A DNA stretch of 64,000 nucleotides from an uncultured Caproiciproducens sp. (GTDB lineage Bacteria; Bacillota; Clostridia; Oscillospirales; Acutalibacteraceae), in contig NZ_OY761810.1 of NCBI RefSeq assembly GCF_963664915.1, positions 2,804,661 through 2,868,660 on the forward strand. The letters run 5' to 3'. The notes under the pieces are model-generated. The model did no database searches and was not told the DNA's origin. It saw nothing but the letters and a program-made list of their open reading frames with translations. The position numbers and the translations under genes were made by a program. Below, in pieces: positions 42,415-57,609 of this stretch (position 1 is the first letter of the stretch; each line of letters begins with the position of its first letter).

Positions 42415-42544
42415 TTGATACTTACACCGCCTATAGTCTCACTAAGGCGGTGTTTTTGTATATAGAAGTCACTTCGGGCCAACTTGGCCCGAAGTCGAAG
42501 GGAGGGAAAGCATTTCCCTGTGGGGTCTGATTGAAAAATCAGGC
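42415..42544. repeat. direct repeat, left copy, flanking the ABC-3C operon
   Basis: About 130 bases shared with 46109-46239. In order: TTGATACTTACACCGCC, a hairpin closing with GGCGGTGTTTTTGTATATAG, the 25-bp palindrome, a diverged G/A-rich stretch, and GGTCTGATTGAAAAATCAGG. The ACACCGCC / GGCGGTGT hairpin followed by TTTTTGT looks like a plus-strand terminator. Confidence 0.85.
42471..42495. repeat. island palindrome copy 1
   Basis: Arms ACTTCGGGCCAA and TTGGCCCGAAGT around a central C. It is perfect and lies inside the left direct repeat. Confidence 0.95.
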
Positions 42545-42638
42545 ATAACAAATGTAAAAAGGTGTGTTTCTTGGGGTACTATGCAGCAAAAAAGCGGCCT
42601 ATCATTTGCCAACCATTCTTAACATACTAATTATCCGA

Positions 42639-44549
42639 TTAGCCTATAGCGTCATCGATAAGTCCCCTTGGCAATCCATCTCTTGCGTCAGAATCAAATT
42701 CAGCCACAATGCACTCATGTGGCAAAAAGTCAGGATATCCATTATTTACAACAATGAGTTGAATATCATCTTTCATGGATTCTGCCGTTTCATACAGATA
42801 CTTTATTATTGCATGGAATATCTTTTCATCCTTAAATTCCTCAGCTTCGTTTTTGGCTGCTTGAGCTCCCAAGTTTTTTCTAGGAGAATCCATTATCAGC
42901 AAATTAGGATGGCAAAATTCCGATGATGAGCCAACAAGCATAATAGCTAAATAGTAGGCCATCGTAATTAAAGTAACTCCAGCCAAGCTACCTAAATCAT
43001 CATATCTCTGTCCGCGCACATAAGGTAGATACCTTTTTTCATCAATATACGCTGTGCTTAATTTTGGATATTCAAACGACTCTAAAATGCCTTCAAATGT
43101 TTGAGAAAGTCTATTAATTAAATCTTGCTTGTCGACAGAATTTTCCGATAACGCCTTAATATTAGATTTAATTATTTGGATAGTTGCATCTTTATCCTTA
43201 ATAAGTTGCTGATACCGCTCGACTTCTTCAAACATTTTCAAGTCTTTTTGGAATTCAAAAATCAGACTATTTTTCTTACCTATTTCGTAGTTGATATATT
43301 CTATCTGCTCCATATTAGGATTTATATAATCTTTTGATAAATGTTGTAATTCAAGTTCTTCTTCGTGAAGCTTCGCTTTGAGATTAACTTCTTCCCGAAG
43401 CATGCCATCATATTTTCGATCTTCAATTTCTGTGAACTTTAGCAGTTCATTCGATTTTCTTCTAGTAATAGCTATATCCTTTTTTAGCAATACTAGTTCG
43501 CCCTTATCGTCGCTTCTTTCACTGCCACACAGGCAACAAACTTCAACACTATCAGGACGGGAGATTGGTTTTAAGCAATTTGGACAAAAAAGAAATTCAT
43601 ATTGGTTGAATGCCATATAGCCTTCAATTGCAAGTTCTTTCTTTTCGATTTCACTAGTATATTGATTATAAAGAAGTCGAAGTTTATTAAGATACTGTTT
43701 TTGATCTTCTTTCTCTTCGGCAACTTTTTCAAGGGCATTTTTAATTTGCTCTATTTCTTTTCTTAATGCCATAGAGGCAACAGAATCCACCCCTTTATCT
43801 TTCTTAATAGTAGATAATTGCTGCTGTAATGCTACAATTTCTTGATGGAGTTTACTCTCTTTTCGAGTACATTCCTGTAAGTCGGCTATATCTATGGATT
43901 GTAAAAAGTCTCGTATTCCAGTTAATTTAATAGTAAGTTCCTTAGCCTCTTCCCTTCTCGCCTCTAAATTGGTTTTAAATTCTTCCAGTGTTTTATCATA
44001 AATGTTAAAAATAATTTCAAATGTTGCTTTTCGTTTAAAGTCCTTTTCCCAAGATTTTTCTCCAAGTATGTCTTCGTTATCAATCTCAGTTTGTTTAATA
44101 TAACAATATTTATATAAATCGCGAAAACTAAAAGTTTGACCCGAAATTGTCATGTTGGCCAGACCCAATTTTTCTATTAAAAATGCAGATAGTGACTTAG
44201 GATTGCTAGGAGTATCAATTCCAAAGCGATTATAAAAAAGAAATTTTTGCTTTTCTTCGTTCCAATCATCCACGATAACAGCAGCTTTAAAATCGAATAG
44301 TTGACGTCTAATTTTATATTTTTCATCGCCAATATATAATACCAATTCTACTTGGGAACAGGAGTTCCCAATTTCGATGTATGATTTATGTCCCTTTGAG
44401 CCAAGAGCATAATCAATCATTTCAAGAATAGATGTTTTTCCCGTTGATGTATGGCCTGAAATATAATTAAACCCATCTCGGAATGGAACAGTATAGTTCT
44501 TTCTTGAGCCAATAAGGGTTAAAGAGACCAGCTTCATTTTAACCTTCAT
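42639..44549 (-). CDS. ABC-three-component system ATPase (DUF3732 type)
   Basis: A 636-residue SMC/Rad50-like ATPase. Walker A is GHTSTGKTS (residues 32-40), a long coiled coil runs through the middle, and a zinc-hook-like CPNC...CCLC pair sits near residue 320. The Walker B-like LLIMDSPRKNLG lies near residue 551. This is the DUF3732 ATPase of ABC-3C systems, which act against plasmids and phages. ATG at 44549 follows GGAGGGG; it overlaps the middle-component gene by 11 bases. The operon is visibly A+T-rich compared with its neighbours, as expected of transferred defence cargo. Confidence 0.85.
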   Translation of the reverse strand: MKVKMKLVSLTLIGSRKNYTVPFRDGFNYISGHTSTGKTSILEMIDYALGSKGHKSYIEIGNSCSQVELVLYIGDEKYKIRRQLFDFKAAVIVDDWNEEKQKFLFYNRFGIDTPSNPKSLSAFLIEKLGLANMTISGQTFSFRDLYKYCYIKQTEIDNEDILGEKSWEKDFKRKATFEIIFNIYDKTLEEFKTNLEARREEAKELTIKLTGIRDFLQSIDIADLQECTRKESKLHQEIVALQQQLSTIKKDKGVDSVASMALRKEIEQIKNALEKVAEEKEDQKQYLNKLRLLYNQYTSEIEKKELAIEGYMAFNQYEFLFCPNCLKPISRPDSVEVCCLCGSERSDDKGELVLLKKDIAITRRKSNELLKFTEIEDRKYDGMLREEVNLKAKLHEEELELQHLSKDYINPNMEQIEYINYEIGKKNSLIFEFQKDLKMFEEVERYQQLIKDKDATIQIIKSNIKALSENSVDKQDLINRLSQTFEGILESFEYPKLSTAYIDEKRYLPYVRGQRYDDLGSLAGVTLITMAYYLAIMLVGSSSEFCHPNLLIMDSPRKNLGAQAAKNEAEEFKDEKIFHAIIKYLYETAESMKDDIQLIVVNNGYPDFLPHECIVAEFDSDARDGLPRGLIDDAIG

Positions 44550-45030
44550 ACTTAACCCCTCCATTCCTTCGATATATGTTGGATTTTTCACGAATAAGTA
44601 GCTCAATCTTAGCTTCCGACAGTTTCACAATTTTAGGAATGAATTCATTTGCTAATTCGATAAGTTTTTGTTTATAGGGATTGTCAATGCGATTTAAAGC
44701 TTCTTCCCCTAGTTCTTTTATTTTATAAACAATAGCATTGTCCTCCAAAGTTGTTTCGATGAAACCTTTTGAAATAAGAAAATTTAAGCTCTGTCTATAT
44801 CTAACTAGATCGGGCTGCCAGTGAAAGAAGGCATAATACTCATCAAAATTCCATTGTGTGCTTAGTTCGTATATATCATCGCTAAGCATTGTACAAGGAA
44901 ATTTTAAAAAGTAATCATACAATTTGATTTTATTTTCTGTCAATTTTATAGACTTTCGTTCTTTAACAGCATCCAGTAATACCAAAATTCGAACAACATC
45001 ATTTATATAGTTGGAGAAACTAACCTCCAT
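44539..45030 (-). CDS. ABC-three-component system middle component
   Basis: A 163-residue protein rich in helices, with a winged-helix-like pattern (SLNFLISKGFIETTLEDNAI, then VYKIKELGEEALNRI). By position between the effector and the DUF3732 ATPase genes it is the middle component of an ABC-3C system. ATG at 45030 is chosen, because the end of the upstream gene supplies GGAGGGG just ahead; the same AATGGAGGGG block also precedes the ATPase start. No enzymatic motif is seen. Confidence 0.75.
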   Translation of the reverse strand: MEVSFSNYINDVVRILVLLDAVKERKSIKLTENKIKLYDYFLKFPCTMLSDDIYELSTQWNFDEYYAFFHWQPDLVRYRQSLNFLISKGFIETTLEDNAIVYKIKELGEEALNRIDNPYKQKLIELANEFIPKIVKLSEAKIELLIREKSNIYRRNGGVKYEG

Positions 45031-45031
45031 G

Positions 45032-46003
45032 TTAATCCCCTCCATTCTTTAGATACTCTTCTAATCTGCTTTTATAATCTTTGAGCCAACCTATACTGCA
45101 TTCTTCCGCCCATTGATGAAGTATACCTTTCTTCGCCATTAAACTCACTTCTGGTAAGGGAGAGCAACTCAATGTTGTCGTATCGGCGTCTTCAATACGT
45201 TCGTACGTCCGGGTTAATAAATCGTTTCCATCTGTGTCATCTTGGTAACGTCTATATTGAGTCTCCCAGAAGGTATACACCTTTCGCTTAAGATTATCAA
45301 GTAAGCGTATTCGTTCAGGATCGCCCTTGCTTTTGATAATATATTCTGCAAATTCTGCGTTGAAGAAGTCTCTTTTACACCCATCAATTAACTTAATCCT
45401 TGCATTTTCCAACTTTTTCACGAATAGCATATCGTCATAATCGTCTGCATCCACATCTTCCAGAAGTATGATAATTTCATCAGAAATGCGTACTTTCTCG
45501 GATTCGATATAAGATAAAATCTCATCAAGTTTTTGCCTTATATCATTATCAAATGCTTCATCGTATATATCATGCTTTTTTAATTGTGAAATTAAATATC
45601 CACCATCATACAATGCTATATCAATCTCATAAATCTTGTGCTGCTGTCCGCTCCATTCACTCCACCACTTGAACTCTTTTGCGTTAAGAGTGCAGGGGAC
45701 GCAAAGAATCCATTTCTTCATTTTGTAGTCGGGTGCTTCAATTGCCCTTTTAAAAGATTCCGTTATCTGGCTTTTTTGAGAACTACCCAAACCGTCAATA
45801 AAATATTTACATTGATAATTATCAATAGGTTTTTCAAAATTGCCAACTAATATATCTATGCCCTCATCACCTTGACTAACTCGGATGTTATGGGCATCAC
45901 TTCCAAAGCAAGCTTGTAACAACTGTGTGCATATCTTTTCAAATATTTCACGAGCACCTGCATCCCCGTGCTGATCTCTCAAATATCTAAAGTCACGTTC
46001 CAA
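45032..46003 (-). CDS. ABC-three-component system effector with restriction-like nuclease domain
   Basis: A 323-residue protein. The N-terminal ~120 residues carry a PD-(D/E)XK-like core: EGIDILVG (Asp50) followed by NYQCKYF (Gln64-x-Lys66), the QxK form used by many restriction-type nucleases. The C-terminal half is helical, with no family I can name, and matches the C-terminal domain typical of ABC-3C proteins by position. The start is TTG at 46003, behind GGAGGG. It is the first gene of the three-gene operon and has its own promoter upstream. Confidence 0.8.
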   Translation of the reverse strand: MERDFRYLRDQHGDAGAREIFEKICTQLLQACFGSDAHNIRVSQGDEGIDILVGNFEKPIDNYQCKYFIDGLGSSQKSQITESFKRAIEAPDYKMKKWILCVPCTLNAKEFKWWSEWSGQQHKIYEIDIALYDGGYLISQLKKHDIYDEAFDNDIRQKLDEILSYIESEKVRISDEIIILLEDVDADDYDDMLFVKKLENARIKLIDGCKRDFFNAEFAEYIIKSKGDPERIRLLDNLKRKVYTFWETQYRRYQDDTDGNDLLTRTYERIEDADTTTLSCSPLPEVSLMAKKGILHQWAEECSIGWLKDYKSRLEEYLKNGGD

Positions 46004-46050
46004 GCTTAGCCCTCCATTTCAAGATAGAATGGATCTTTGTATTTGTAACA

Positions 46051-46079
46051 ATTATACATTGTATCATTTCTTTATTCAA
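46051..46079 (-). promoter_or_regulatory. promoter of the ABC-3C operon
   Basis: On the minus strand, TTGAAT (46074-46079) and TATAAT (46051-46056) are separated by 17 bases, about 48 bases upstream of the TTG start. Confidence 0.75.
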
Positions 46080-46108
46080 CGCAATTCGTCAAAAGATATC
46101 AATAATTA

Positions 46109-46239
46109 TTGATACTTACACCGCCTTAGTAAGACTACAGGCGGTGTTTTTGTATATAGAAGTCACTTCGGGCCAAGTTGGCCCGAAGTTGGAAGGGGGA
46201 ATAACACATCTCCACAGGGTCTGATTGAAAAATCAGGCC
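46109..46239. repeat. direct repeat, right copy, flanking the ABC-3C operon
   Basis: Second copy of the ~130-base repeat at 42415-42544. Here CTGATT and AATCAG around GAAA are followed by GGCCTTTTTT, so this copy keeps a complete plus-strand terminator that the left copy has lost. The interior of the ACACCGCC hairpin is inverted relative to the left copy. Confidence 0.85.
46165..46189. repeat. island palindrome copy 2
   Basis: Perfect 12-base arms with central G, inside the right direct repeat. Confidence 0.95.
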
Positions 46240-46271
46240 TTTTTTCATGTCTGAATGAAGGAGGAAACCAC

Positions 46272-46865
46272 ATGACATCTGAAAAATTTAACGAAAGCAA
46301 AGGTAAGAAGGAGGATAAAAAGCAAAAGCGCAAATGGCCGTACATTCTTGTGATTCTTCTGCTGCTGCTGCTTCTCCTGCTGCTTTTGTTACGAAGCTGC
46401 GGGAATCAGCATCCCTATCCCTGCCCGTGTCCGTCACCATCCAGTTCCACCCCCTCATCGTCCGCTCCGTCTCTGGACGATACCGGAAGTGCGGAACCGG
46501 GAAGCGGTAGCACTCCTTCGCGGCAGGAAATCCTGTCCCGGCTTCAAAAGCAGGAAGTCACCGTCACCGACAAGGTGAGCGCACAGGCTACCTTTTCCAA
46601 AGGGTCAAAGGGCAGCGCGGGTACATGGAAAGTGGAAAATCCGTCCTCCAACAGCGTCATTATGCAGTGTGAAATTGTGTTGGACGGCAAAACCATTGCA
46701 AAGTCCGCGCCAATCTATCCGGGGCAGCACATTGACGGCCTTGTTCTTTCCCAGCCGGTTTCATCTGGAAGCTACGGCGTGACCGCAACAATCAAGTATT
46801 ATAACAAAGCAAGCAAGGCGTATCTCGGCATGGCGGATTACAAAATCCATCTGTCCGTATCGTAA
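46272..46865 (+). CDS. membrane-anchored extracellular protein, hypothetical
   Basis: A 197-residue protein with a lysine-rich cytosolic start, one membrane helix built mostly of leucine (encoded by CTG/CTT/CTC repeats), then a cysteine/proline-rich and a Ser/Thr/Pro-rich linker (about 60-90). A C-terminal beta-sandwich-like domain follows (VTVTDKVSAQATFSKGSKG, GTWKVENPSSNSVIMQCEIV). It is a type II or signal-anchor surface protein of unknown role. It begins behind GAAGGAGG and precedes two secreted-protein genes, suggesting one surface cassette. Confidence 0.7.
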   Translation: MTSEKFNESKGKKEDKKQKRKWPYILVILLLLLLLLLLLLRSCGNQHPYPCPCPSPSSSTPSSSAPSLDDTGSAEPGSGSTPSRQEILSRLQKQEVTVTDKVSAQATFSKGSKGSAGTWKVENPSSNSVIMQCEIVLDGKTIAKSAPIYPGQHIDGLVLSQPVSSGSYGVTATIKYYNKASKAYLGMADYKIHLSVS

Positions 46866-46911
46866 TCAACCGCTTCTGCGGCTGAAATAAAAACATGCAG
46901 GAGGTTTTCCA

Positions 46912-47502
46912 ATGAAAAACAGGTTCAAAAGGGTTCTCGCGGGCATTGTTACTTTTGCCGTGCTGGGCGTATCGGCGGCAGTCCCGGCGTTCGCCGCCGA
47001 CAAAACCGACACCGGCACAGGCAGCGTCACAGGCAACGTGACGATCAACGGCTCCATCTCGCCGCTGACCATCTCCGTCACCCACCCGATCAACGTGGCC
47101 TATGCCATCAGCCCGGATGCCGAAACCTTTACCTCACCCGACATTAAAGTGACCAACAACACCAAAGTCGCGGTGATCGCCACGGTGGAATCCCTGAAAG
47201 CCGCTTCTGGCGGTTCGCTTACCTTTACCGACGTTGATCCGTCCGCAAAAGCGTGGCGTTCTCTCAACCTTGCGGATTCCAAGAAGTACATTGCGCTCGG
47301 CATTTCCGCAAAAGGCAATTCCGGCTGGAACAGCGGGTACAGCACATCCACCCATTGGGCGGTCAATGATTCGCCGTTACAGGTCGGAACGCTGAATCCG
47401 AACACTTCCGGCGCACTGTCCATGACGGCAGACTACGGTCTCGCGTTTGATGGGGCGTACACGGCCAACCATCAACTTGTTTTCCAGTTTCAGCTTGCAT
47501 AA
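46912..47502 (+). CDS. secreted protein with duplicated surface domain, hypothetical
   Basis: A 196-residue protein with a clear signal peptide (FKRVLAGIVTFAVLGVSAAV, cleavage after AFA). Residues about 52-196 form a domain (ISVTHPINVAYAI, SPDIKVTNNT, WNSGYSTSTHW, SMTADYGLAFD) that recurs at the C-terminus of the next gene's product. It has neither a cell-wall sorting signal nor a WxL motif. Forty-six bases separate it from the upstream gene. Confidence 0.75.
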   Translation: MKNRFKRVLAGIVTFAVLGVSAAVPAFAADKTDTGTGSVTGNVTINGSISPLTISVTHPINVAYAISPDAETFTSPDIKVTNNTKVAVIATVESLKAASGGSLTFTDVDPSAKAWRSLNLADSKKYIALGISAKGNSGWNSGYSTSTHWAVNDSPLQVGTLNPNTSGALSMTADYGLAFDGAYTANHQLVFQFQLA

Positions 47503-47570
47503 AAACATAGGCGCAGGAATTGGCCGGGATTTTCCCGGCCAATCTTCCACGCTGAAAGGGGGATTTTTAT

Positions 47571-49433
47571 TTGAGGCAATCATTCAAGCGGCTTTTTCTC
47601 GCGCCTCTGCTTGCCGCCGATATTCTGTTATCCGGCATTTTTCCCTGCGTCACGGCCTCCGCCGCGTCGGTTCTGTCGCTGACCGCGACGCCGAACCCGT
47701 CTGGGAACTATGTGGCGCTGAGCTGGACAAACAGCGACAAAAGCCAGCCGTACAGCTATATGCTCTATTCCAAGTCCGCGCATGAATCGACCTTCCAGAG
47801 CATCCCCGCCAAAGACAGTGCGAAGGTTTTGAACATCTATCCCGTTGTTGCACCGACCATTTCCTTTACAATATGGAACGGCAAGAGCTACACCCTACCG
47901 AAGTCGGCATCCCTTAAAATGTGGATGGAAACACCGAACGGGTATGATTCCAAGGGTTATGGCAAGGGCCTCATTTCCGTAGATACCGTTTCAATCTCCG
48001 ATTTCAACGCCAACCCGGACGCTTATCTGAAAAACGCGAACGGCAGTTACAAATATGACGTGCTGTATTTCGGCGCGTGGGATGCTTTCGCAAGTCAGGA
48101 TTTATCCAATTCGGCGGAAACCAAGACCGACGTCTTTATCAAAACAGGGCGCGGCGTTCTGTTCGGGCATGACACGATGGTGGACAATGACCAAATTTCC
48201 ATGCCGAACTTTTTCAAGCTCGCCCATTACTGCGATATTCAGACTATCCCGCATTACACCGTGCTCGGCAGCTCGCAGATCAAAGTTTCCAAGAAGGGCC
48301 TGCTCACTAATTATCCGTGGACTATAGGAGACGTGGGTACGGTTCTGAATGTTCCGCTGTCTCATTCCAATCAGCTTGCTTTCGGGGACGTGTGGATGAC
48401 TTATCAGCAGCCCTACACATACCCCAACAGCGCAGAAGCAACTGGCTCCAACGGGCAGGGCACCAATACCTTTTATCTGACCAGTTGGTCAAACTGCGCC
48501 ATGATTCAGACCGGTCACTCCAACGGGGAAGCCACGCCGGACGAGCAGCGCGTCACGGCAAACGCCCTGTTTTACCTAGCGCAGATTACAACCGATACAA
48601 GCTGGAACGACCATAAAGGACAGGATTTGGACGCGCCGGACAGACCGACGATTTCCGGCGTTACGCACAATTCTGACCGAACGCAGTATACCGTCAACTA
48701 TTCTTCGCAGGACAATGCAACCGGCTATCAATATTATGTGGAGGCCACCGGACAGAACGACGGCGCGAAATACGATTCTCCGGTCATTTCCACCTCTTTG
48801 AAAACCGGAATGAAAGGCTACTCCATCGTGGTGGACAACAACTCCGATACCGTCCCGGATGGGAGCATTACCACGACATCAAGCAGCTATACTTTTTCCC
48901 GCCCGTCCGGCAGCAGCTTTTACATCCATATTGTCGCCGTGGACAATGCCGGAAATATTTCATCCATCGCTCATTATCTCGTGGACGAGTTGGTGTCTGT
49001 GACACATCCGGTCAGTATCGGCTACGCCATCGACCCGAACAGCAACACGCCATTCACCGCGCCGGATATTCCGATTACCAACCATTCCACTTTCCCCGTC
49101 CGGGTTTCCGTCGCGGGCCTGAAAGCGACTTCCGGCATCGGTGACGCCGCCCCCACGTCCTATTCGGATTGGAACAGCCTGACGGCGGCACAGACCGGAA
49201 ACGGAATCGCGCTCGGCGTGGAAATCAGGGAAACAGTCGGTTCAGGCTGGACGGCGGTTGACCGGGCAATGCCCGTTTATACAAGCAATCTTGCATCAGA
49301 AGTACCTTTGGGGACACTCGGCGCGAACGGGGCGTCGGGGAATCTGGCGCTTACCGCTAAATTCGGTTTGGCATGGGCAACCGCGAAAACTGTTTCCCAT
49401 GAACTGACGCTGAACTTTACGATTGCGGATTGA
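47571..49433 (+). CDS. large secreted DUF5057-like protein
   Basis: A 620-residue protein, starting with TTG at 47571 behind AAAGGGGG. A signal peptide ends near ASA (residue ~32). A fibronectin-like segment follows, then a domain resembling DUF5057 (about 110-345: YDVLYFGAWDAFASQDLS, VLFGHDTMVDN, QTGHSNGEATPDEQRVTANA), then a second fibronectin-like segment. The last ~150 residues are paralogous to the protein encoded just upstream (SVTHPVSIGYAID, PDIPITNHSTFPV). It is probably exported and may work with its neighbour on the cell surface. The function is unknown. Confidence 0.75.
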   Translation: MRQSFKRLFLAPLLAADILLSGIFPCVTASAASVLSLTATPNPSGNYVALSWTNSDKSQPYSYMLYSKSAHESTFQSIPAKDSAKVLNIYPVVAPTISFTIWNGKSYTLPKSASLKMWMETPNGYDSKGYGKGLISVDTVSISDFNANPDAYLKNANGSYKYDVLYFGAWDAFASQDLSNSAETKTDVFIKTGRGVLFGHDTMVDNDQISMPNFFKLAHYCDIQTIPHYTVLGSSQIKVSKKGLLTNYPWTIGDVGTVLNVPLSHSNQLAFGDVWMTYQQPYTYPNSAEATGSNGQGTNTFYLTSWSNCAMIQTGHSNGEATPDEQRVTANALFYLAQITTDTSWNDHKGQDLDAPDRPTISGVTHNSDRTQYTVNYSSQDNATGYQYYVEATGQNDGAKYDSPVISTSLKTGMKGYSIVVDNNSDTVPDGSITTTSSSYTFSRPSGSSFYIHIVAVDNAGNISSIAHYLVDELVSVTHPVSIGYAIDPNSNTPFTAPDIPITNHSTFPVRVSVAGLKATSGIGDAAPTSYSDWNSLTAAQTGNGIALGVEIRETVGSGWTAVDRAMPVYTSNLASEVPLGTLGANGASGNLALTAKFGLAWATAKTVSHELTLNFTIAD

Positions 49434-49529
49434 ACAGGTTATTTTAAAAAATACCAAAACAGGCAGAACGGGCAGAGAATTTTCTCGGCCCTTTTTTACT
49501 GCAAAAAATCAGCAAGGAGGTAAACCCGT

Positions 49530-50915
49530 ATGGCAAAAGATAAACCCAACAATCCGGAGGAAATGACAACCGGGCCAGTCAGCGAAACTCCCGCAGAGAA
49601 AAAAACTGCTCCCGCTGTCCCGTCGCCGGAAGTCGGCGGTGAGGCCCCGGCCCCTGAACCGACCGTCGAGGAAAAAGCGGTGCTGACTCAAGAGGGCAAA
49701 AAACCGATTGAGCCGCCCGCGCCATCAGACATCGGCGGCGAACATGTTCCCAACCCCGGTGACATTGTTGTTCCGCCAGACAAAATCAATGAACTTATGT
49801 CGGAAAAGAAACCCTCACACAGAGGCAGGTTGCCAAAAGCGGATAAGGCCGAACAGGCCCCGGCTCCCGAAAAAACAGAAGCGGAAAAATCGAATCAGAC
49901 CCCCAAAAGGGAGCACAAGCCTCGCGCGGAAAAGCAGAAACCCGCCGCCGCGAAAAAGGCCCCGGTGAAGGAGGAATCCCCGGCCCCGGAGCCGCCGCAG
50001 GAACCGAAAGAGGCTCCGCGCAAGGGCGAAACGGAACAGATTGTTTTCCTCAACCTGTCCGAGCTTCACGCTTTCAAAAATCATCCGTTCCAAGTCCGGG
50101 ACGATGATGAAATGCGGGCGATGGTGGAAAGTGTCAGGGATAAAGGCGTTACACAGCCCGCTATCGTTCGATCCCGTGAGGACGGCGGCTTTGAAATCGT
50201 ATCCGGCCACCGCCGCCAGAAAGCCAGCGAATTGGCTGGGTATGCGGATATGCCCTGTATCGTCCGCAACCTGACCGACGATGAAGCAATTACGCAGATG
50301 GTGGAGGATAACATCAATCAGCGTGAAAACATTCTCCCCAGCGAACGGGCCAAGGCTCTGAAAATGCAGTTGGAGGCCATAAAGCGGCAAGGTGTGCGGG
50401 GCGACCTGTCCACTTCGGGCCAACTTGGCCCGAAGTCGGAAAACGGGCAGCGTTCCAACGCGGTTGTGGCCGAGCGCAATAAAATGACAGTCAAGCAGGT
50501 ACAGCGGTATATCAAGCTGAACGATCTTGTGCCTGATCTGATGAAAATGGTGGATGAAAAGAAAATTTCATTCACTCCCGCCGTTGAAATGTCCTTCATC
50601 AAGCCCAAAAATCAGCGGTATATCGCCGTTGCCATCGAGGGCCAGCAGTCAGCCCCATCGCTGTCACAGGCACAGCGAATGCGGGAACTTGACCAGAAAG
50701 GGATGCTCAATGGCGACGTAATCGATGGCATTATGCTCGAAGAAAAAAAGGAGGTAGACAAAGTGATCATTTCCAGTCAGGAACTTAGCCAGTATTTCGG
50801 GAAGGAAAAGACCCCGCGTGAAATGAAGGATACCATCATCAAGCTGTTGGACGAATGGAAAGGCCAGCAGAAGGATATTGCCAAACCGGAAAAACAGACC
50901 GAACAGGAAAAATAA
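49530..50915 (+). CDS. ParB/Spo0J-family partition-like protein
   Basis: A 461-residue ParB-like protein. Residues 1-170 are Pro/Glu/Ala/Lys-rich and probably disordered. The ParB N-terminal CTPase-type domain follows (QIVFLNLSELHAFKNHPFQV, IVSGHRRQKASELAG with the GHRR box, EDNINQRENILPSERAKA), then a helix-turn-helix region (AVVAERNKMTVKQVQRYIKL, about 310-335). No ParA is next to it. Codons 295-303 (TSGQLGPKS) are written by a copy of the island palindrome, and the next copy begins on the stop codon. Such ParB proteins are common in conjugative transposons of Clostridia. Confidence 0.88.
   Translation: MAKDKPNNPEEMTTGPVSETPAEKKTAPAVPSPEVGGEAPAPEPTVEEKAVLTQEGKKPIEPPAPSDIGGEHVPNPGDIVVPPDKINELMSEKKPSHRGRLPKADKAEQAPAPEKTEAEKSNQTPKREHKPRAEKQKPAAAKKAPVKEESPAPEPPQEPKEAPRKGETEQIVFLNLSELHAFKNHPFQVRDDDEMRAMVESVRDKGVTQPAIVRSREDGGFEIVSGHRRQKASELAGYADMPCIVRNLTDDEAITQMVEDNINQRENILPSERAKALKMQLEAIKRQGVRGDLSTSGQLGPKSENGQRSNAVVAERNKMTVKQVQRYIKLNDLVPDLMKMVDEKKISFTPAVEMSFIKPKNQRYIAVAIEGQQSAPSLSQAQRMRELDQKGMLNGDVIDGIMLEEKKEVDKVIISSQELSQYFGKEKTPREMKDTIIKLLDEWKGQQKDIAKPEKQTEQEK
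50412..50436. repeat. island palindrome copy 3, inside the parB-like gene
   Basis: Perfect arms, central C. It is read in frame as residues 295-303 of the ParB-like protein, just before its helix-turn-helix. Confidence 0.95.
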
Positions 50916-50939
50916 CTTCGGGCCAAGTTGACCCGAAGT
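50915..50939. repeat. island palindrome copy 4, on the parB stop codon
   Basis: Central G with one mismatch (GACCC instead of GGCCC in the right arm). Its first base is the last A of the parB-like TAA stop codon. Confidence 0.95.
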
Positions 50940-50945
50940 CCATAA

Positions 50946-51150
50946 GCGGGGCGCTGCCCCGCGCCCTGATGCTCAAAGGATTTATTCCCCGTCGCCGCAA
51001 TTTCCGTAGCACAGCCGGATGTTCGCCGTCAAGAGTGGCGCGGCGCGCCACCGCGAAGCGGCCTTGCTCTTGACGGCGGGCTCCGGTTATGCTTTCCTGC
51101 GGCCATGCGACGGGGATTATTCCCTTGAACAGCCCCCTTTCCATGAGTGG
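50946..51150. other. cluster of three hairpins in the parB downstream gap
   Basis: The 290-base gap holds GCGGGGC / GCCCCGC around GCT (50946-50962), GCCGTCAAGAG / CTCTTGACGGC around a G+C-rich 31-base centre (51025-51077), and CCTTTCC / GGAAAGG around ATGAGT (about 51130-51150). None has a T-run. They could be structured RNA or single-strand DNA elements such as a transfer or replication origin. No relaxase gene is present to support the latter. Confidence 0.5.
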
Positions 51151-51207
51151 AAAGGGCGGGGGAAAAGGTTGACACATTTGGCGCGACAGAAACGGAGGTG
51201 CTTTTAT

Positions 51208-51573
51208 TTGAAAAGACCATTGGCGTACATCACCGCCGCATGGAGCGGCAATCACGATACAGACGCGAAACAGGCAGCGCGGTATTGCCGGGCGGTATAC
51301 GAAGCCGGATTTTCCCCGGTCTGCCCCCTGCTTTATCTTCCCCTGATTCTCAACGACGCCATCCCGGAGGAACACAAAAGCGGCATCGACATCGGGCGCG
51401 ACCTTCTGCACCGTTCCCATGTACTTGTTGTTTGCGGCGACGGTATGAACGAGGACATGAAAAACGACATAGCCACAGCCGGGCGGCTGAATATCACGGC
51501 GACCACGCTGGACGGTATTCTGACAGTTAAGGGACAGGGCCGCGGGGAGGCCGAAACCAATGAGCGCGATTGA
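51208..51573 (+). CDS. DUF4406/nucleoside-deoxyribosyltransferase-like protein
   Basis: A 121-residue protein with a Rossmann-like start (RPLAYITAAWSGNH, AARYCRAVYEAGFSPVCPLL) and a later LLHRSHVLVVCGDGMNEDMK. This matches DUF4406/DUF7768 proteins of mobile elements, which are distant relatives of nucleoside 2-deoxyribosyltransferases. The start is TTG at 51208, behind GGAGGTG. An upstream extension to 51019 would cover the hairpin cluster and lacks a ribosome binding site. It overlaps ardA by 14 bases, implying co-translation. Confidence 0.75.
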   Translation: MKRPLAYITAAWSGNHDTDAKQAARYCRAVYEAGFSPVCPLLYLPLILNDAIPEEHKSGIDIGRDLLHRSHVLVVCGDGMNEDMKNDIATAGRLNITATTLDGILTVKGQGRGEAETNERD

Positions 51574-52030
51574 AGCCTTTGTCACTAATCTTGGGCGCTA
51601 CAACGAAGGGTATCTGGACGGGGAGTTTTTGAAGCTCCCCGCCACTACCGAGGAAGTTCAGGCCCTTTTCCAGCGTATCCATGTAGACGGAGTACGGTAT
51701 GAGGAAATTTTCATCACAGACTATGAAACCGATGTTTCCGGCCTGTATGACTGCCTCCCCGAATACGCCGATCTGGATGAGCTGAACTATCTCGCTACTC
51801 TACTGGACGATTTGGACGAGGGCGACCGGGAGAAGTTTGAAGCCGCCCTTTCCTGCGGCGACCATACAAGCAGCCTGAAAGAGTTGATCAACCTCGCGCA
51901 AAACCTCGACTGCTATGAGTATTATCCCGGAATCTGTGACGAGGACGATTTGGGCCGCTACATGATCGACGAAATGGGCGCGATGGAAGTACCGGAATAT
52001 CTGGAAAACTACATCGACTACGAGGCATAG
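51560..52030 (+). CDS. ardA: antirestriction protein ArdA
   Basis: A 156-residue, very acidic protein that mimics B-form DNA to block type I restriction enzymes when a mobile element enters a cell. ArdA features are visible: an early LGRYNEGYLDGEFLKLP, DELNYLATLLDDL in the middle, and the ending DLGRYMIDEMGAMEVPEYLE followed by NYIDYEA. It is full length. ArdA is typical of Tn916/Tn1549-like conjugative transposons. The sequence directly after its stop codon belongs to a different, truncated gene. Confidence 0.92.
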   Translation: MSAIEAFVTNLGRYNEGYLDGEFLKLPATTEEVQALFQRIHVDGVRYEEIFITDYETDVSGLYDCLPEYADLDELNYLATLLDDLDEGDREKFEAALSCGDHTSSLKELINLAQNLDCYEYYPGICDEDDLGRYMIDEMGAMEVPEYLENYIDYEA

Positions 52031-52113
52031 ATTCATTTGAAATGATACAAGGCACAATGGATGATGTGTTCTTGAAATTGGTTGGTGACAATAAGGAGGA
52101 TTATACGAAATGA
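52030..52113 (+). pseudogene. 3' stub of an ABC transporter ATPase gene
   Basis: Reading in frame to a TGA at 52111-52113 gives DSFEMIQGTMDDVFLKLVG then DNKEDYTK. GTMDDVFLxLxG is the usual C-terminal tail of drug-type ABC ATPases. The stub starts at the last base of the ardA stop codon, and its TGA overlaps the ATG of the permease gene (ATGA), as in an intact ATPase-permease pair. The rest of the ATPase is missing, so a recombination joint lies at about 52030. Confidence 0.7.
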
Positions 52114-52985
52114 AAGCACTATTGAGCTTGGTTAATCGGAACAACAAAGTTTTCAGGCGTGACAGAGTGCAAATTGTTTTCGCTCTTTTGACGGTCGGAA
52201 TACTGATAGCACTTTATGCTCTTTTTTTAAGACAAGAGAATTTGTCACAATTAAAAAACATTGTAGGCAACAATATCCCCGCTATGTACTGGCTGGCTGA
52301 CACTCATATGGTAGCAGGTTTATTGACAATCTGCACCGTAACGACAACGCTTACCGCCTTCGGTGTAATGGTTTGGGATAAAGAAAGGCAAAAAGACATA
52401 GATTTTCTGGCAACACCCTTATCAAGAAATAAGATACAGTTGGGCTATCTTATCAATGCCGTGTTGATTGGACTTGTATTTACTGCGATTGCATTTTTTC
52501 TGTGTGAATTATTTATAAAAATGGCTGGTGGAGAATTTCTGACATTTTCGGAAACAATGAAAGTGTTCGGCTTGCTTATATTATCCTTGCTTCTTGCAAG
52601 CAGTATCAATTTGTTTATTTCATTTTTGGTTAAAACTCAACGTGCCTTTTCAACAATAAATACGATTGTGGGAACCTTAATCGGATTTTTATTGGGGGCA
52701 TATTTCCCAATGGGTGTATTCCCGCAACCTGTTCAGTTTTTAATCAAGATATTTCCATTAAGCCATATAGCAACATTGTTAAGACAGGTTATGATGGAAA
52801 GACCCATGCAATTAGTTTTCAGTAACACGACGGCTTCGATTGATACATACAAACTTCATTATGGGGTTGTTTACAGCGTGAATGGAAATATCGTTTCACC
52901 TGTATCAAGTATCATTTTTATCTTAATTTCTACTGTCGTGTTCGCATCACTTTCTATTTATATTTTCAAAAAAATCAATAAGTAG
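52110..52985 (+). CDS. ABC-2-type transporter permease, orphan
   Basis: A 291-residue membrane protein with about six helices (IVFALLTVGILIALYALFL, GLVFTAIAFFLCELFI, GLLILSLLLASSINLFI and others) and the central WDKERQKDIDFLATPLSRNK. It matches ABC-2 permeases of multidrug/lantibiotic exporters. Its ATPase is reduced to a stub just upstream, so it probably has no partner here. Base composition is more A+T-rich than ardA, supporting separate origins. GGAGG precedes the ATG. Confidence 0.85.
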   Translation: MKALLSLVNRNNKVFRRDRVQIVFALLTVGILIALYALFLRQENLSQLKNIVGNNIPAMYWLADTHMVAGLLTICTVTTTLTAFGVMVWDKERQKDIDFLATPLSRNKIQLGYLINAVLIGLVFTAIAFFLCELFIKMAGGEFLTFSETMKVFGLLILSLLLASSINLFISFLVKTQRAFSTINTIVGTLIGFLLGAYFPMGVFPQPVQFLIKIFPLSHIATLLRQVMMERPMQLVFSNTTASIDTYKLHYGVVYSVNGNIVSPVSSIIFILISTVVFASLSIYIFKKINK

Positions 52986-53005
52986 ATTAAATGGGGGGTG
53001 ATTTA

Positions 53006-53194
53006 GTGGAACCGACCGAATGGCTCTTATGCCCTGTTTGCCAAAGTAAGACACGCATTAAAATACGAGAAGATACAATACTTGAGAACTTCCCGCTCTT
53101 TTGTCCGAAATGCAAAAAAGAAACAATCATCAATGTCAAAAAATTGAATATGTCAGTTATCAAAGAGCCAGACGCTAAGACGCAGAGCCGATAA
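53006..53194 (+). CDS. cysteine-rich KTR-domain protein
   Basis: A 62-residue zinc-ribbon-like protein: WLLCPVCQSKTRIKIREDT, then LFCPKCKKETIINVKKL. Two CxxC pairs and the KTR motif identify the small cysteine-rich KTR family found in Firmicutes mobile elements. GTG at 53006, behind GGGGGGTG, is chosen; the ATG at 52991 overlaps that site. The role is unknown. The 3' end overlaps a terminator hairpin. Confidence 0.8.
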   Translation: MEPTEWLLCPVCQSKTRIKIREDTILENFPLFCPKCKKETIINVKKLNMSVIKEPDAKTQSR

Positions 53195-53222
53195 CATGTG
53201 AGAAAATCACTGTTATCGGCTC
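53185..53222 (+). terminator. terminator at the end of the KTR gene
   Basis: Perfect 12-base arms GAGCCGATAACA / TGTTATCGGCTC around a 14-base loop, followed by ATTCTTTA. The left arm includes the gene's stop codon. Confidence 0.75.
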
Positions 53223-53285
53223 ATTCTTTATGATAACTTTTTCAGCTATGCGATACTGACATTCTTAACAACGAATATAAAACCG

Positions 53286-53474
53286 TTGTTTAGCGTGTGT
53301 CGCATACATAGAAAAACGGCGGTTTTGAAGAATTTCAAGGCCGCCGTATTCTGTGCCAACATTGAAGAAAGTGCAGTTTTCTTCGACTTAACAGTGATGG
53401 CGGCTAAAGCGGAGGAACCATATGAATTTAAAGTCGCTATTGTCTGTAATGGAGGAACCGTTGCTTTGTTGTAA
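53286..53474 (+). CDS. possible small ORF, unrecognised
   Basis: Sixty-two codons from a TTG; the product is FKAAVFCANIEESAVFFDLT with flanking residues. No ribosome binding site precedes it and no family is recognised. It ends in an inverted repeat (GAACCGTT / AACGGTT) that could be a terminator. It may be a gene fragment left by rearrangement. Confidence 0.25.
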   Translation: MFSVCRIHRKTAVLKNFKAAVFCANIEESAVFFDLTVMAAKAEEPYEFKVAIVCNGGTVALL

Positions 53475-53637
53475 CGGTTTGGCTTAGCTGACAGCTTAAT
53501 CTTTCAAAACTCCAAAAAAACCATAACAAAGTTCATGGGTGAATACTGCGCTCATTTTTCTTTTAACACCTTGCGGGAACTTTCCCGTATAGGTGCTTTT
53601 TTGTCTCTTTTTGCGGTATTGCAGGAAAAAACCTGCC

Positions 53638-53662
53638 ACTTCGGGCCAACTTGGCCCGAAGT
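53638..53662. repeat. island palindrome copy 5, upstream of the sigma-like gene
   Basis: Perfect arms, central C. It lies about 100 bases before the sigma-like gene start. Confidence 0.95.
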
Positions 53663-53759
53663 TCGCGCTGGGCCTAACCGCCATAGTAGTCCCGGTTGCC
53701 GTTCCCCGCCGTTCTCCGTTCATCAAGCATCAACTCACAAAATGAACGGAGGTAACATA

Positions 53760-54176
53760 ATGGACAAGCCACTTGTAACGATAACATATAAAACCGCCAG
53801 TGGAAGTAAGATTTGTGTTGAGGTTTCAACCCCGGTCAAAGAACTGCTGGAACAGTCCGACCGACAAATTCGCTCCCAAAGGCGGCAAGACAGGCGACAT
53901 CTCGACTTTACGGTACGCACAGATGAAAATTTGTCCGATTCCCTGTTTCCCGCATGTGAGGATACCGCCGATCTGTTGATAAAAATGGAGCGTGATGCCT
54001 GGCTCCATGAGGCCATCGGCAAACTGACCGAGGTACAGAGACGGAGACTGCGCCTATACTACTTTGAAGGATTCAGCTACAGCCGGATCGCCAGACTGGA
54101 AGGTGTATCCTGCCAGACTGTTGTCAGTACAATCGAACAGGCGCTTAAACGGTTGCAAAAGCTCTGCCGGAGATAA
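53760..54176 (+). CDS. sigma-70 family (ECF-like) regulator of the element
   Basis: A 138-residue protein. The C-terminal half is a sigma region 4 helix-turn-helix (LTEVQRRRLRLYYFEGFSYS, RIARLEGVSCQTVVSTIEQA). The N-terminal half is not a recognisable region 2. Such short sigma-like proteins are standard regulators in Tn916/Tn1549-type elements. ATG at 53760 follows CGGAGGTAAC; the longer frame upstream runs through palindrome copy 5 and is not believed. Confidence 0.85.
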   Translation: MDKPLVTITYKTASGSKICVEVSTPVKELLEQSDRQIRSQRRQDRRHLDFTVRTDENLSDSLFPACEDTADLLIKMERDAWLHEAIGKLTEVQRRRLRLYYFEGFSYSRIARLEGVSCQTVVSTIEQALKRLQKLCRR

Positions 54177-54189
54177 TCACATTCCAAGC

Positions 54190-54221
54190 AGGACGCCCCG
54201 CCTCCGCGCGGGGTTGTCCTT
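54190..54221 (+). terminator. hairpin after the sigma-like gene
   Basis: G+C-rich inverted repeat (AGGAC...CCCCGC / GCGGGG...GTCCT) beginning 13 bases past the stop. It lacks a long T-run. Confidence 0.5.
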
Positions 54222-54342
54222 GACTATTCTATAGCTATTCACACGTTCAATTATACATTTGAATATGCGTATTTGCAAGCTGTATTAATCGTATTTTACG
54301 CTTCTGCAAATGTGTATGCTATAAATGGACGGAGGCGGTAAA

Positions 54343-54645
54343 GTGGATATATTGGATAGAATTAAGCAGCTACGGGATGAACGTGGCTGGAGCAATTACA
54401 AGTTGGCGAAAGAGGCCCACATATCGGAGGGGTCGCTCAACAATTTGTTTCGATTGAATAATCAGCCGACGATTCCCACTTTGGAAGCGATATGCACGGG
54501 CCTCGGCATCAGCCTTTCCCGATTTTTCGCGGAAGGAAACGAGGCCGTTGTCCTTAGTCTGGAACAGCGGGAAATGCTTGATATATGGAGCACTCTCAAC
54601 AAAGAACAAAAGGCTGCGTTATTGGAACTTCTGAAAAAAATGTAA
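54343..54645 (+). CDS. XRE-family helix-turn-helix regulator
   Basis: A 100-residue regulator with a classical Cro/CI helix-turn-helix: IKQLRDERGWSNYKLAKEAH, then ISEGSLNNLFRLNNQPTIPT and LEAICTGLGISLSRFF. The C-terminal 35 residues may dimerise (LSLEQREMLDIWSTLNKEQK). GTG at 54343 follows GGAGGCGG. It is probably the repressor of excision or transfer functions in the element; no operator was identified. Confidence 0.85.
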   Translation: MDILDRIKQLRDERGWSNYKLAKEAHISEGSLNNLFRLNNQPTIPTLEAICTGLGISLSRFFAEGNEAVVLSLEQREMLDIWSTLNKEQKAALLELLKKM

Positions 54646-54657
54646 TCAAAGAATACA

Positions 54658-54705
54658 ACGAGAAGAAACCCGGAAGGTGATGAAGCCTGCCGGGTTTCTT
54701 CTCGT
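54658..54705 (+). terminator. strong hairpin after the XRE gene
   Basis: Perfect 16-base arms (ACGAGAAGAAACCCGG and complement) around a 16-base spacer, starting 12 bases past the stop codon. Confidence 0.7.
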
Positions 54706-55212
54706 CATAAAACACATTGAAAGAATTAAATTTTTTTGAAAAGACGCCTTGAAAAACGGCCTTTTTCCGTCCTAATAAGTAGAGGATACTTTTTCCTCGT
54801 TTGTACTTTGAAAGCTGAATAAAAAGATACCCGGATACGAAGGGTACGTGTGCCGAGCGACAGGCCCGCAATGACCTCCATTGCCAGAGAATGGAGAGAG
54901 CGACAAGGCCCATGCCGCAGGCGGGGCGTGACTTGGCCCCGCCTGATCAAGCACACAAACTCGGATACTTGCGTTCAGTCACAGTCCGAGCGTGAAGCGG
55001 CCATTCAGGCCGTGAGCCGTCGCAGGCAATGAGGACGCCTCGCCATCAGAATGGGGAGAGGTGAAATTCCTATGGGGCGGACAAGCCGCCGCCCGTCCGG
55101 GTACTCTGTTCGCATTACCGAAAAAGAGGGCCGCGCCGTGTTTGCCTGTCTTATGACGGCCCGAAACTTACGGCGCGGGTTCGCTCACTCTGTTGATGAA
55201 CGGAGTTTTATA
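54706..55212. other. gene-free region with several short palindromes
   Basis: No convincing coding sequence. From about 54840 it is G+C-rich with repeated pairable segments: AGGCGGGGC / GCCCCGCCT at 54919-54944, CTCGGA / TCCGAG near 54960-54985, and GCGGCC / GGCCGT near 55000. It may be a structured leader or small RNA, or debris of lost transfer genes. Confidence 0.4.
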
Positions 55213-55407
55213 ATGGATAAGCAGTTAGAAACATTGCTTGATCAGCAATGGAGCAATAACGCTTGCCGCGGCTATGTCATTTGGGCTATGGAGAACTGCG
55301 ATTTCAATCCTGATGATATTCAGCGCGTGATTTCGGAACTTCATTACGTTTTCGATATGAAATCCATTGAAGAAGCCGACCGGCATTATTGCGACAGCCC
55401 CTATTGA
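55213..55407 (+). CDS. small mobile-element protein, unrecognised
   Basis: A 64-residue acidic protein (MDKQLETLLDQQWSNNACRG, then YVIWAMENCDFNPDDIQRVI). ATG at 55213 follows CGGAG. Longer upstream frames have no ribosome binding site. I do not recognise a family with certainty. Its TGA stop supplies the first base of palindrome copy 6. It lies upstream of the tnpW-like and recombinase genes. Confidence 0.6.
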   Translation: MDKQLETLLDQQWSNNACRGYVIWAMENCDFNPDDIQRVISELHYVFDMKSIEEADRHYCDSPY

Positions 55408-55431
55408 CTTCGGGCCAAGTTGGCCCGAAGT
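55407..55431. repeat. island palindrome copy 6, on a stop codon
   Basis: Perfect arms, central G. The first A is the last base of the preceding gene's TGA, as for copy 4. Confidence 0.95.
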
Positions 55432-55538: not shown

Positions 55539-57481
<1,943 letters not shown>

Positions 57482-57533: not shown

Positions 57534-57609
57534 TGGTCCGAGTGGCGAGACTTGAACTCACGGCCTCTTGACCCCCAGTCAAGCGCGCTACCAACTGCGC
57601 TACACCCGG
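57534..57609 (-). tRNA. tRNA-Pro (anticodon GGG)
   Basis: A 76-base cloverleaf on the minus strand. Acceptor CCGGGTG pairs with CACTCGG (one G-T pair). The D arm is GCGC / GCGC around AGTTGGTA, the anticodon arm CTTGA / TCAAG around CTGGGGG, and the T arm GTGAG / CTCGC around TTCAAGT. The 3' ACCA is encoded. Anticodon GGG reads CCC/CCU proline codons. The 3' end faces the mobile island. Confidence 0.95.

Follow-up and report, generated by a model that had tools for sequence, protein, structure and literature searches.

Putative parS-like palindromes of a ParB family: a site inside the reader's own gene and its copies on an integrative element

Why does an integrated element repeat one 25-bp palindrome six times within 13 kb, and which protein reads it? 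The question is raised by a 64-kb stretch of the genome of an uncultured Caproiciproducens sp. (contig NZ_OY761810.1, positions 2,804,661 to 2,868,660), called the window throughout, whose element encodes a ParB protein at 49530-50915. A sequence-only reading had proposed the palindromes as candidate sites of this ParB. Comparison of homologous genes supports the proposal beyond mere proximity, through apparent coevolution of protein and DNA. Because the site changes together with the DNA-reading residues and recurs across the element, the resident ParB very probably has its binding sites in the six palindromes, and we hold with high confidence that they are its putative operators, of a parS-like kind. 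The family as a whole very probably reads an intragenic palindrome, because that palindrome has a fixed place in the gene, arms that compensate each other, bases that covary with the protein, rules that predict it and a natural swap of the cassette that holds it.

Six palindromes and the ParB of the window

The six palindromes were confirmed at the coordinates reported before, five of them perfect and the copy at 50915 with one mismatch. Their places, and those of the gene and codons discussed below, are as follows (ORF, open reading frame; HTH, helix-turn-helix).

42471 to 42495, no strand: copy 1, intergenic, in the left direct repeat, where it follows a terminator-like hairpin
46165 to 46189, no strand: copy 2, intergenic, within the right direct repeat and ahead of the gene at 46272
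50412 to 50436, no strand: copy 3, within parB and in frame, residues 295-303 (TSGQLGPKS)
50915 to 50939, no strand: copy 4, one mismatch, overlapping the parB stop codon
53638 to 53662, no strand: copy 5, near the start of ORF 53535-54176 (sigma-70 region 4 domain)
55407 to 55431, no strand: copy 6, across the stop codon of ORF 55051-55407, with the recombinase ORF downstream
49530 to 50915, plus strand: parB, 461 aa (PF02195, E 2.3e-18; TIGR00180 above cut-off)
50457 to 50576, plus strand: codons of the covarying residues N310, V321, K322 and Q325 (HTH) and T349

Copy 5 possibly lies in the 5' leader of its ORF, if an internal ATG is the start. No T-run follows any of the six, as had been stated, and the stem followed by a T-run that marks an intrinsic terminator is missing from them all. 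The rest of the 64 kb holds no further copy at up to 3 mismatches, and 100 dinucleotide shuffles gave none. The claim that the palindrome is confined to the island stands within these 64 kb but not for the genome, where there is a seventh one, also exact, some 2.1 Mb away at G000:C1:744844; it precedes a truncated duplicate of genes 46272-47502. This duplicate (L001 1401-2800, G000:C1:744744-746143) is far from parB, and its palindrome is an orphan site in the same genome. Besides the seventh copy, the sequence-only reading had overlooked that copy 3 lies inside parB, that the copies at 50915 and 55407 overlap stop codons, and that a direct repeat surrounds a Lamassu-type operon.

The window site differs, as had been claimed, from the classical chromosomal parS TGTTTCACGTGAAACA. 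Canonical parS was considered as the window site and rejected, as it is absent from the window. The genome's only two parS-like places, one mismatch each to classical parS, lie outside the window at C1:1029316 and 1031530; the host's own two ParB/Noc-type genes are at G000:C1:1027804-1031545, with parS-like sites close by.

The window ParB consists of a P/E/A/K-rich N-terminal tail of about 165 aa, a ParB_N domain, a disordered linker holding the site and the HTH, and it carries the GxRR motif as GHRR at residue 226. In a predicted structure of residues 165-461 (mean predicted local distance difference test, pLDDT, 82.6), the site-encoded peptide falls within a segment of pLDDT <50 (residues 291-306) directly before the HTH. 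Positions 310, 321-325 and 349 are in predicted helices, with V321, K322 and Q325 on one helix.

A palindrome at a fixed place in homologous parB genes

Stretches of the genome collection that match the 21-bp core of the palindrome number at least 120, and many hold several copies within 8 kb. Among the matches listed, most are, by record title, from Clostridia, with others from Syntrophobacterales, Candidatus Adiutrix, a Chloroflexi metagenome-assembled genome and Paenibacillus. The core also matched 4 viral contigs. Several of the distant parB genes fetched via the palindrome hold it at the same place, with the peptide T-S-G-Q-L/V-G-P-K. A protein search found the ParB in 33 of 98 relatives, again with a palindrome at that place and in other letters, and the site peptides differ by gene (TSPQVAAK in L148, NSRQLVGN in L149, TSVPLGQR in L161). 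In wider searches the family was present in 148 of 394 genomes of the order and in 105 of 391 of the class. The best-scoring ParBs were fetched (about 110 genes from the order and about 70 from the class), so weak homologues are under-represented.

In 146 of 161 distinct genes the best 25-bp palindrome has at least 10 of 12 pairs, and 141 of these share one codon phase. The site lies close to parAB: at least 10 pairs stand at the fixed place inside parB in 141 of the 161 homologues (61 with 12, 52 with 11 and 28 with 10), and in the window parB has one copy within it and one at its end. Loci fetched by the site pattern itself contributed only 7 of the 141 genes, and the second-best palindrome elsewhere in the gene reaches at most 9 pairs in 149 of 161. 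Among 67 further genes (2 of 69 were skipped for want of an anchor), 66 have at least 9 pairs and 63 at least 10. Plasmids give further examples, with 11/12 pairs on one of Cohnella and 12/12 on one of Subdoligranulum.

The two arms compensate each other. In 136 genes the mean is 11.16 pairs; swapping right arms at random between genes lowers it to 7.61 (highest of 500 shuffles 7.89), and synonymous recoding to 5.33. Pairing fades past pair 12, the next pair being formed in 95 and the one after in 49 of the 136 genes. The letters themselves vary greatly, with 95 distinct half-sites among 138 genes; site distance correlates with distance in the linker at 0.35, in the HTH at 0.22 and in other regions at 0.10-0.14. 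Three genes, L206, L283 and L289, have centres unlike CAA-N-TTG or CCA-N-TGG (with peptides such as TCATELHKS and TSANDLQKL) and still 11/12 pairs; their reader residues may reveal further code.

The family has two forms. The common form is a parA-parB operon with one intragenic site, and the form of the window has a long N-terminal tail, many sites and ParA not upstream. With one ParA query at E<=1e-8, a ParA-like ORF stands directly upstream, usually overlapping, in 23 of 31 short-ParB loci and in 0 of 7 long-ParB loci, window included, the sequence available for one of the seven being only 1.7 kb (Fisher P 5e-4). The palindromes had been called a new site type for an integrated element without ParA. 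The difference from classical parS holds; the restriction to such elements does not, since versions of the site are also intragenic in short ParBs beside ParA, single in each gene. Long-ParB loci such as L006, L083 and L097 have no internal palindrome and carry copies before and after parB.

Free sequence with conserved pairing is typical of RNA stems. The long stem can fold, and several copies lie inside or at the end of genes, so one might take the palindrome for an mRNA hairpin that acts in translation control or forms terminator-like gene ends. We regard this as extremely improbable. Near the centre, where a hairpin loop would leave no room for all of the pairs, pairing is kept (at pair 12 by 127 of 136 genes, at pair 11 by 132), and G-U accounts for only 27 of 114 non-Watson-Crick cells, and for 4 of 70 in the variable pairs 5-9. 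The loci L006 and L097, with sites on both sides of parB and none within, do not suit a hairpin of this message either. We prefer a DNA site to an RNA hairpin because centre pairs are kept, G-U mismatches are few and sites occur outside parB; base-specific covariation with DNA-binding residues, described below, would not be expected of a hairpin.

A second alternative is a mobile or repetitive palindrome, similar to repetitive extragenic palindromes, that spread passively and landed in parB. Elements of the long-ParB branch do carry many copies, the flanks are duplicated at copies 1, 2 and 7, and several copies lie at stop codons (as a raw count, T(A/G)A overlaps an end in 65 of 154 exact copies). 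Passive spread is nevertheless highly unlikely. In 31 short-ParB loci (up to 20 kb fetched around each) no second copy of the gene's own site was found at up to 5 mismatches, and the two short-ParB sites tested were single in their whole genomes. Moreover, the palindrome keeps its position in parB while its sequence is free and tracks HTH residues.

The parA-parB operons of L148 and L149, from two genomes of the window's genus, are 80-98% identical per 60-bp block, with a break of about 117 bp at 52% identity that holds the linker, the site and the recognition helix. Since the site varies greatly and coevolves with the reader residues, site and reader appear to be exchangeable together as one short cassette.

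In the open literature (a scope that leaves subscription journals and preprints largely outside) no published description of such an intragenic parB site was found. A literature search by the site letters gave, among the matches listed, apparent chance hits, in primers for example.

Covariation of site bases with residues of the DNA-binding domain

If ParB reads the palindrome, the bases should follow the residues that touch them. We computed the mutual information between site bases and protein columns in 141 genes, with the site-encoded residues masked. The strongest links join column 148 with positions 9 (z 12.6) and 8 (8.4), column 175 with position 11 (11.3) and column 136 with position 6 (9.3); column 147 with position 8 (5.9) and column 151 with position 7 (4.4) follow. 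All five peak columns belong to the ParB DNA-binding domain. The links can be read as rules. With D, N, T or E at column 148, position 9 is G in 28/28, C in 27/27, C in 19/19 and A in 13/14 genes, respectively, and with R or K it is position 8 that is fixed, as G (23/23 and 12/12). At column 175, R goes with C11 in 54/55 genes and N, T or S with A11 in 81/83, and D at column 136 goes with G6 in 25/25.

A profile alignment to 4umk, ungapped over the HTH, places columns 136, 147, 148, 151 and 175 at Caulobacter ParB residues 162, 173, 174, 177 and 201; the second aligned stretch is weak alone (i-Evalue 1.4) and follows a strong one, and the Caulobacter numbering derives from motif spacing. In Caulobacter ParB the residues Q162, R173 and G201 touch parS, and in Noc a C at position 6 is read by R201 (PMC7383237). 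The site bases thus covary with HTH columns at known contact positions, which is the pattern predicted for an HTH that reads the palindrome.

Under permutation within clusters of related proteins at the strictest threshold, z remained 9.4-18.2 for all links except 175-11. Changes were also counted on a tree built without the linker and HTH columns (35 pairs, P values nominal): same-branch changes numbered 29 against 12.4 expected for 148-9 (P 1.5e-8), 31 against 16.3 for 136-6 (P 2.5e-6) and 5 against 0.5 for 175-11 (P 2.4e-5), with an excess also for 147-9 (P 7.3e-6) and for 148-8 and 151-8 (both P 1.1e-5). Finally, the rules were used for prediction. In a hold-out of close relatives at 60% identity, column 148 called position 9 correctly for 120 of 134 genes, compared with fractions of 0.59 for the majority base and 0.37 for the nearest relative left in the set; column 136 gave the base at position 6 in 112 of 136 genes and column 175 that at position 11 in 131 of 133. 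For 66 unseen genes, correct calls exceeded those of the majority base at position 9 (53/66 vs 31), 8 (57/66 vs 34), 6 (49/66 vs 32), 11 (62/65 vs 48) and 7 (48/57 vs 27). Ten of the 66 are at least 80% identical to a training gene (4 at least 95%), and their removal changes little; in the 40 unseen genes less than 70% identical to training, the calls were correct in 27/40, 36/40, 30/40, 36/39 and 27/33 for positions 9, 8, 6, 11 and 7.

The window ParB can be judged by the same code. Its five specificity columns (N310, V321, K322, Q325 and T349) were compared with rules from 135 short ParBs only, in which N goes with G6 (7/7), K with G8 (11/11) and T with A11 (27/27), and Q favours G7 (38/60). 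The window site has G6, G7, G8 and A11, in agreement at positions 6, 7, 8 and 11; position 9 is not discriminating for K (C in 5, A in 6). Long ParBs with GGGCC-type sites, window included, share N, V or I, K and Q at the four HTH positions, and their fifth column is T except in L046 and L115 (G and D by alignment-free reading). Across the 98 relatives, the expectation that the 25-mer tracks this ParB subfamily gave a mixed but favourable picture, with a match in 12 of 33 genomes that have the family and in 1 of 65 that lack it. All 6 genomes with a ParB hit below 1e-100 hold 5 to 14 sites, and at least 5 occur in 2 of the other 92.

Several observations weigh against reading the palindrome as the site of ParB. 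Twenty of the 161 genes were not counted as having 10 or more pairs at the fixed place, one of them (L287) being excluded only by the anchor pattern. Position 2 is followed by linker columns 133-134, and position 11 has further correlates among the N- and C-terminal columns, the latter being a clade effect. The 175-11 link is itself linked to clade and fails permutation within 70%-identity clusters (364/500 reach it). Weaker co-change occurs at unexpected pairs, for example 136-5 (P 4.7e-4), 151-9 and 147-6, and covariation could be overestimated where site and HTH recombine as one linked cassette. Sites and readers also part company in places. Genome G010 has 6 sites (2 perfect, 3 with one mismatch and 1 with three), but its ParBs are two short ones whose own sites are different; in G004, which has 2 sites, the search gave no ParB at E<=1e-20, and copy 7 of the window genome is likewise away from parB. 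Conversely, the 11 kb covered for the long ParB of G019 contain no such palindrome, and the ParB on viral contig L126 has no site. Lastly, among co-resident pairs 1 has identical sites and 11 differ by no more than two half-site positions, where permutations give 0.54 and 8.6.

Two of these points touch observations of their own. In G010 (L180, L181) the GGGCC-type sites, several of them mismatched, lie downstream of a short parAB whose intragenic site is another one, and no long parB is there; they are possibly relics of a lost long parB. Incompatibility was considered as the force behind site diversity and rejected, as no avoidance is seen among 71 pairs of ParBs that share one of 39 genomes (92 of 93 loci, without L291).

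The cassette raises one further alternative, in which another protein of the element, the XRE regulator or the sigma-like one, reads the palindrome and ParB covaries only via linkage. The site is about 20 codons from the HTH codons, and the two are exchangeable together. We nevertheless think it very unlikely that linkage is the explanation: the covariation is column-specific, falls on published parS-contact positions and makes plausible chemistry (R or K with G), and column 175, outside the exchanged tract, covaries too. The rules also hold between genes less than 60% identical (148 to position 8, for example, in 15/16). ParB itself remains the preferred reader.

A probably derived branch and its place among known systems

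In the ancestral form, a parA-parB operon, parB would carry one site only, embedded in its coding sequence within the disordered linker just before the HTH, and in this parA-linked form the intragenic site would be the centromere. ParB dimers would recognise the palindrome with one HTH per half-site and then presumably load as clamps dependent on cytidine triphosphate (CTP), as the GHRR motif suggests. In the window branch, ParB would have gained its long N-terminal tail and the same site would have multiplied over the element to 6 copies within 13 kb, of which some sit where genes end. By analogy, our first guess for this branch, with roughly an even chance of being right, is KorB-like or BisD-like silencing or organisation of the element; maintenance with ParA supplied in trans is the second guess and a distinctly less probable one. 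The spread sites may perhaps also serve upkeep of the excised element.

Known systems share parts of this arrangement. ParB/Spo0J-parS and Noc-NBS (Noc-binding site) are alike in combining ParB_N and HTH with a palindromic site and the same contact positions. A parS site inside spo0J of B. subtilis is a precedent for an intragenic site. To our knowledge classical parS is nearly fixed across bacteria; the site described here has 25 bp and one central base, and differs between most genes. Noc R201 reads a C two bases from the dyad (PMC7383237), and here R at column 175 goes with C11 (54/55).

KorB of plasmid RK2 is likewise a ParB-family protein with several short palindromes, its OB operators, each with one central base, over its element. 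OB is not known to lie in korB. The window has several palindromes too, and its ParB resembles KorB by sequence in the N-terminal fold only (8qa8, E 3.3e-7). KorB slides as a CTP clamp to silence promoters (PMC11790492). Among the orphan ParBs, BisD of integrative and conjugative elements of Pseudomonas is a ParB without ParA on an integrative element and acts in gene regulation (PMC12704722); it belongs to a different host group, and a palindromic in-gene site is not seen in the searched text of that paper, where 'palindrom' occurs 0 times.

ParR-parC is built on a protein family different from ParB, and its site lies outside the reader gene. In rep genes of the pT181 family the origin is inside rep, so that the recognition site lies in the reader's gene and is matched by specificity residues; the protein there is a replication initiator with a nicking site, and not a ParB. 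ParR proteins of Clostridium perfringens plasmids bind only parC centromeres of the same family, the proposed basis of compatibility (PMC9426499).

The remaining features of the element are the following.

42639 to 46003, minus strand: Lamassu-type operon between copies 1 and 2 (LmuB 42639-44606, LmuC 44539-45045, LmuA 45032-46003)
55748 to 57481, plus strand: large serine recombinase of the element, adjoining tRNA-Pro (57534-57609)

Other genes of the window encode DUF7768 and ArdA proteins, an ABC-2 permease, a sigma-like regulator, an XRE-type regulator and products of unknown function. The Lamassu-type operon, of the defence kind, is cargo, outside the site system. Copies 1 (42471) and 2 (46165) sit in a direct repeat of roughly 100 bp that brackets it; within 42420-46230, each repeat consists of a terminator-like hairpin, the palindrome and a common 3' segment, and that segment also fronts the L001 duplicate. 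It looks as if the operon was gained by duplication or recombination at the shared repeat segment. Read by eye, the genes that follow the short parB in L148 and L149 (L148 2400-3850) resemble window genes from 46272 (46272-49433), which suggests that the place of the Lamassu operon was formerly occupied by parAB.

Taken together, the family likely has a self-encoded centromere, a cognate site in parB beside the reader codons, so that one short recombination would re-specify the partition system. It would offer about a hundred matched pairs with a partly readable residue-to-base code, and the window would represent a derived branch in which the site was released into a multi-operator network of a ParA-less ParB. 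It has long been asked how a DNA-binding protein and its site can shift their specificity in concert. Because site and reader share about a hundred bases, vary greatly and pair unambiguously in each genome, the rules of ParB recognition can be learned and tested from natural pairs. A large set of candidate orthogonal ParB-parS pairs would become available to imaging and to work with plasmids, and the sites of uncharacterised ParBs on integrative elements could be predicted.

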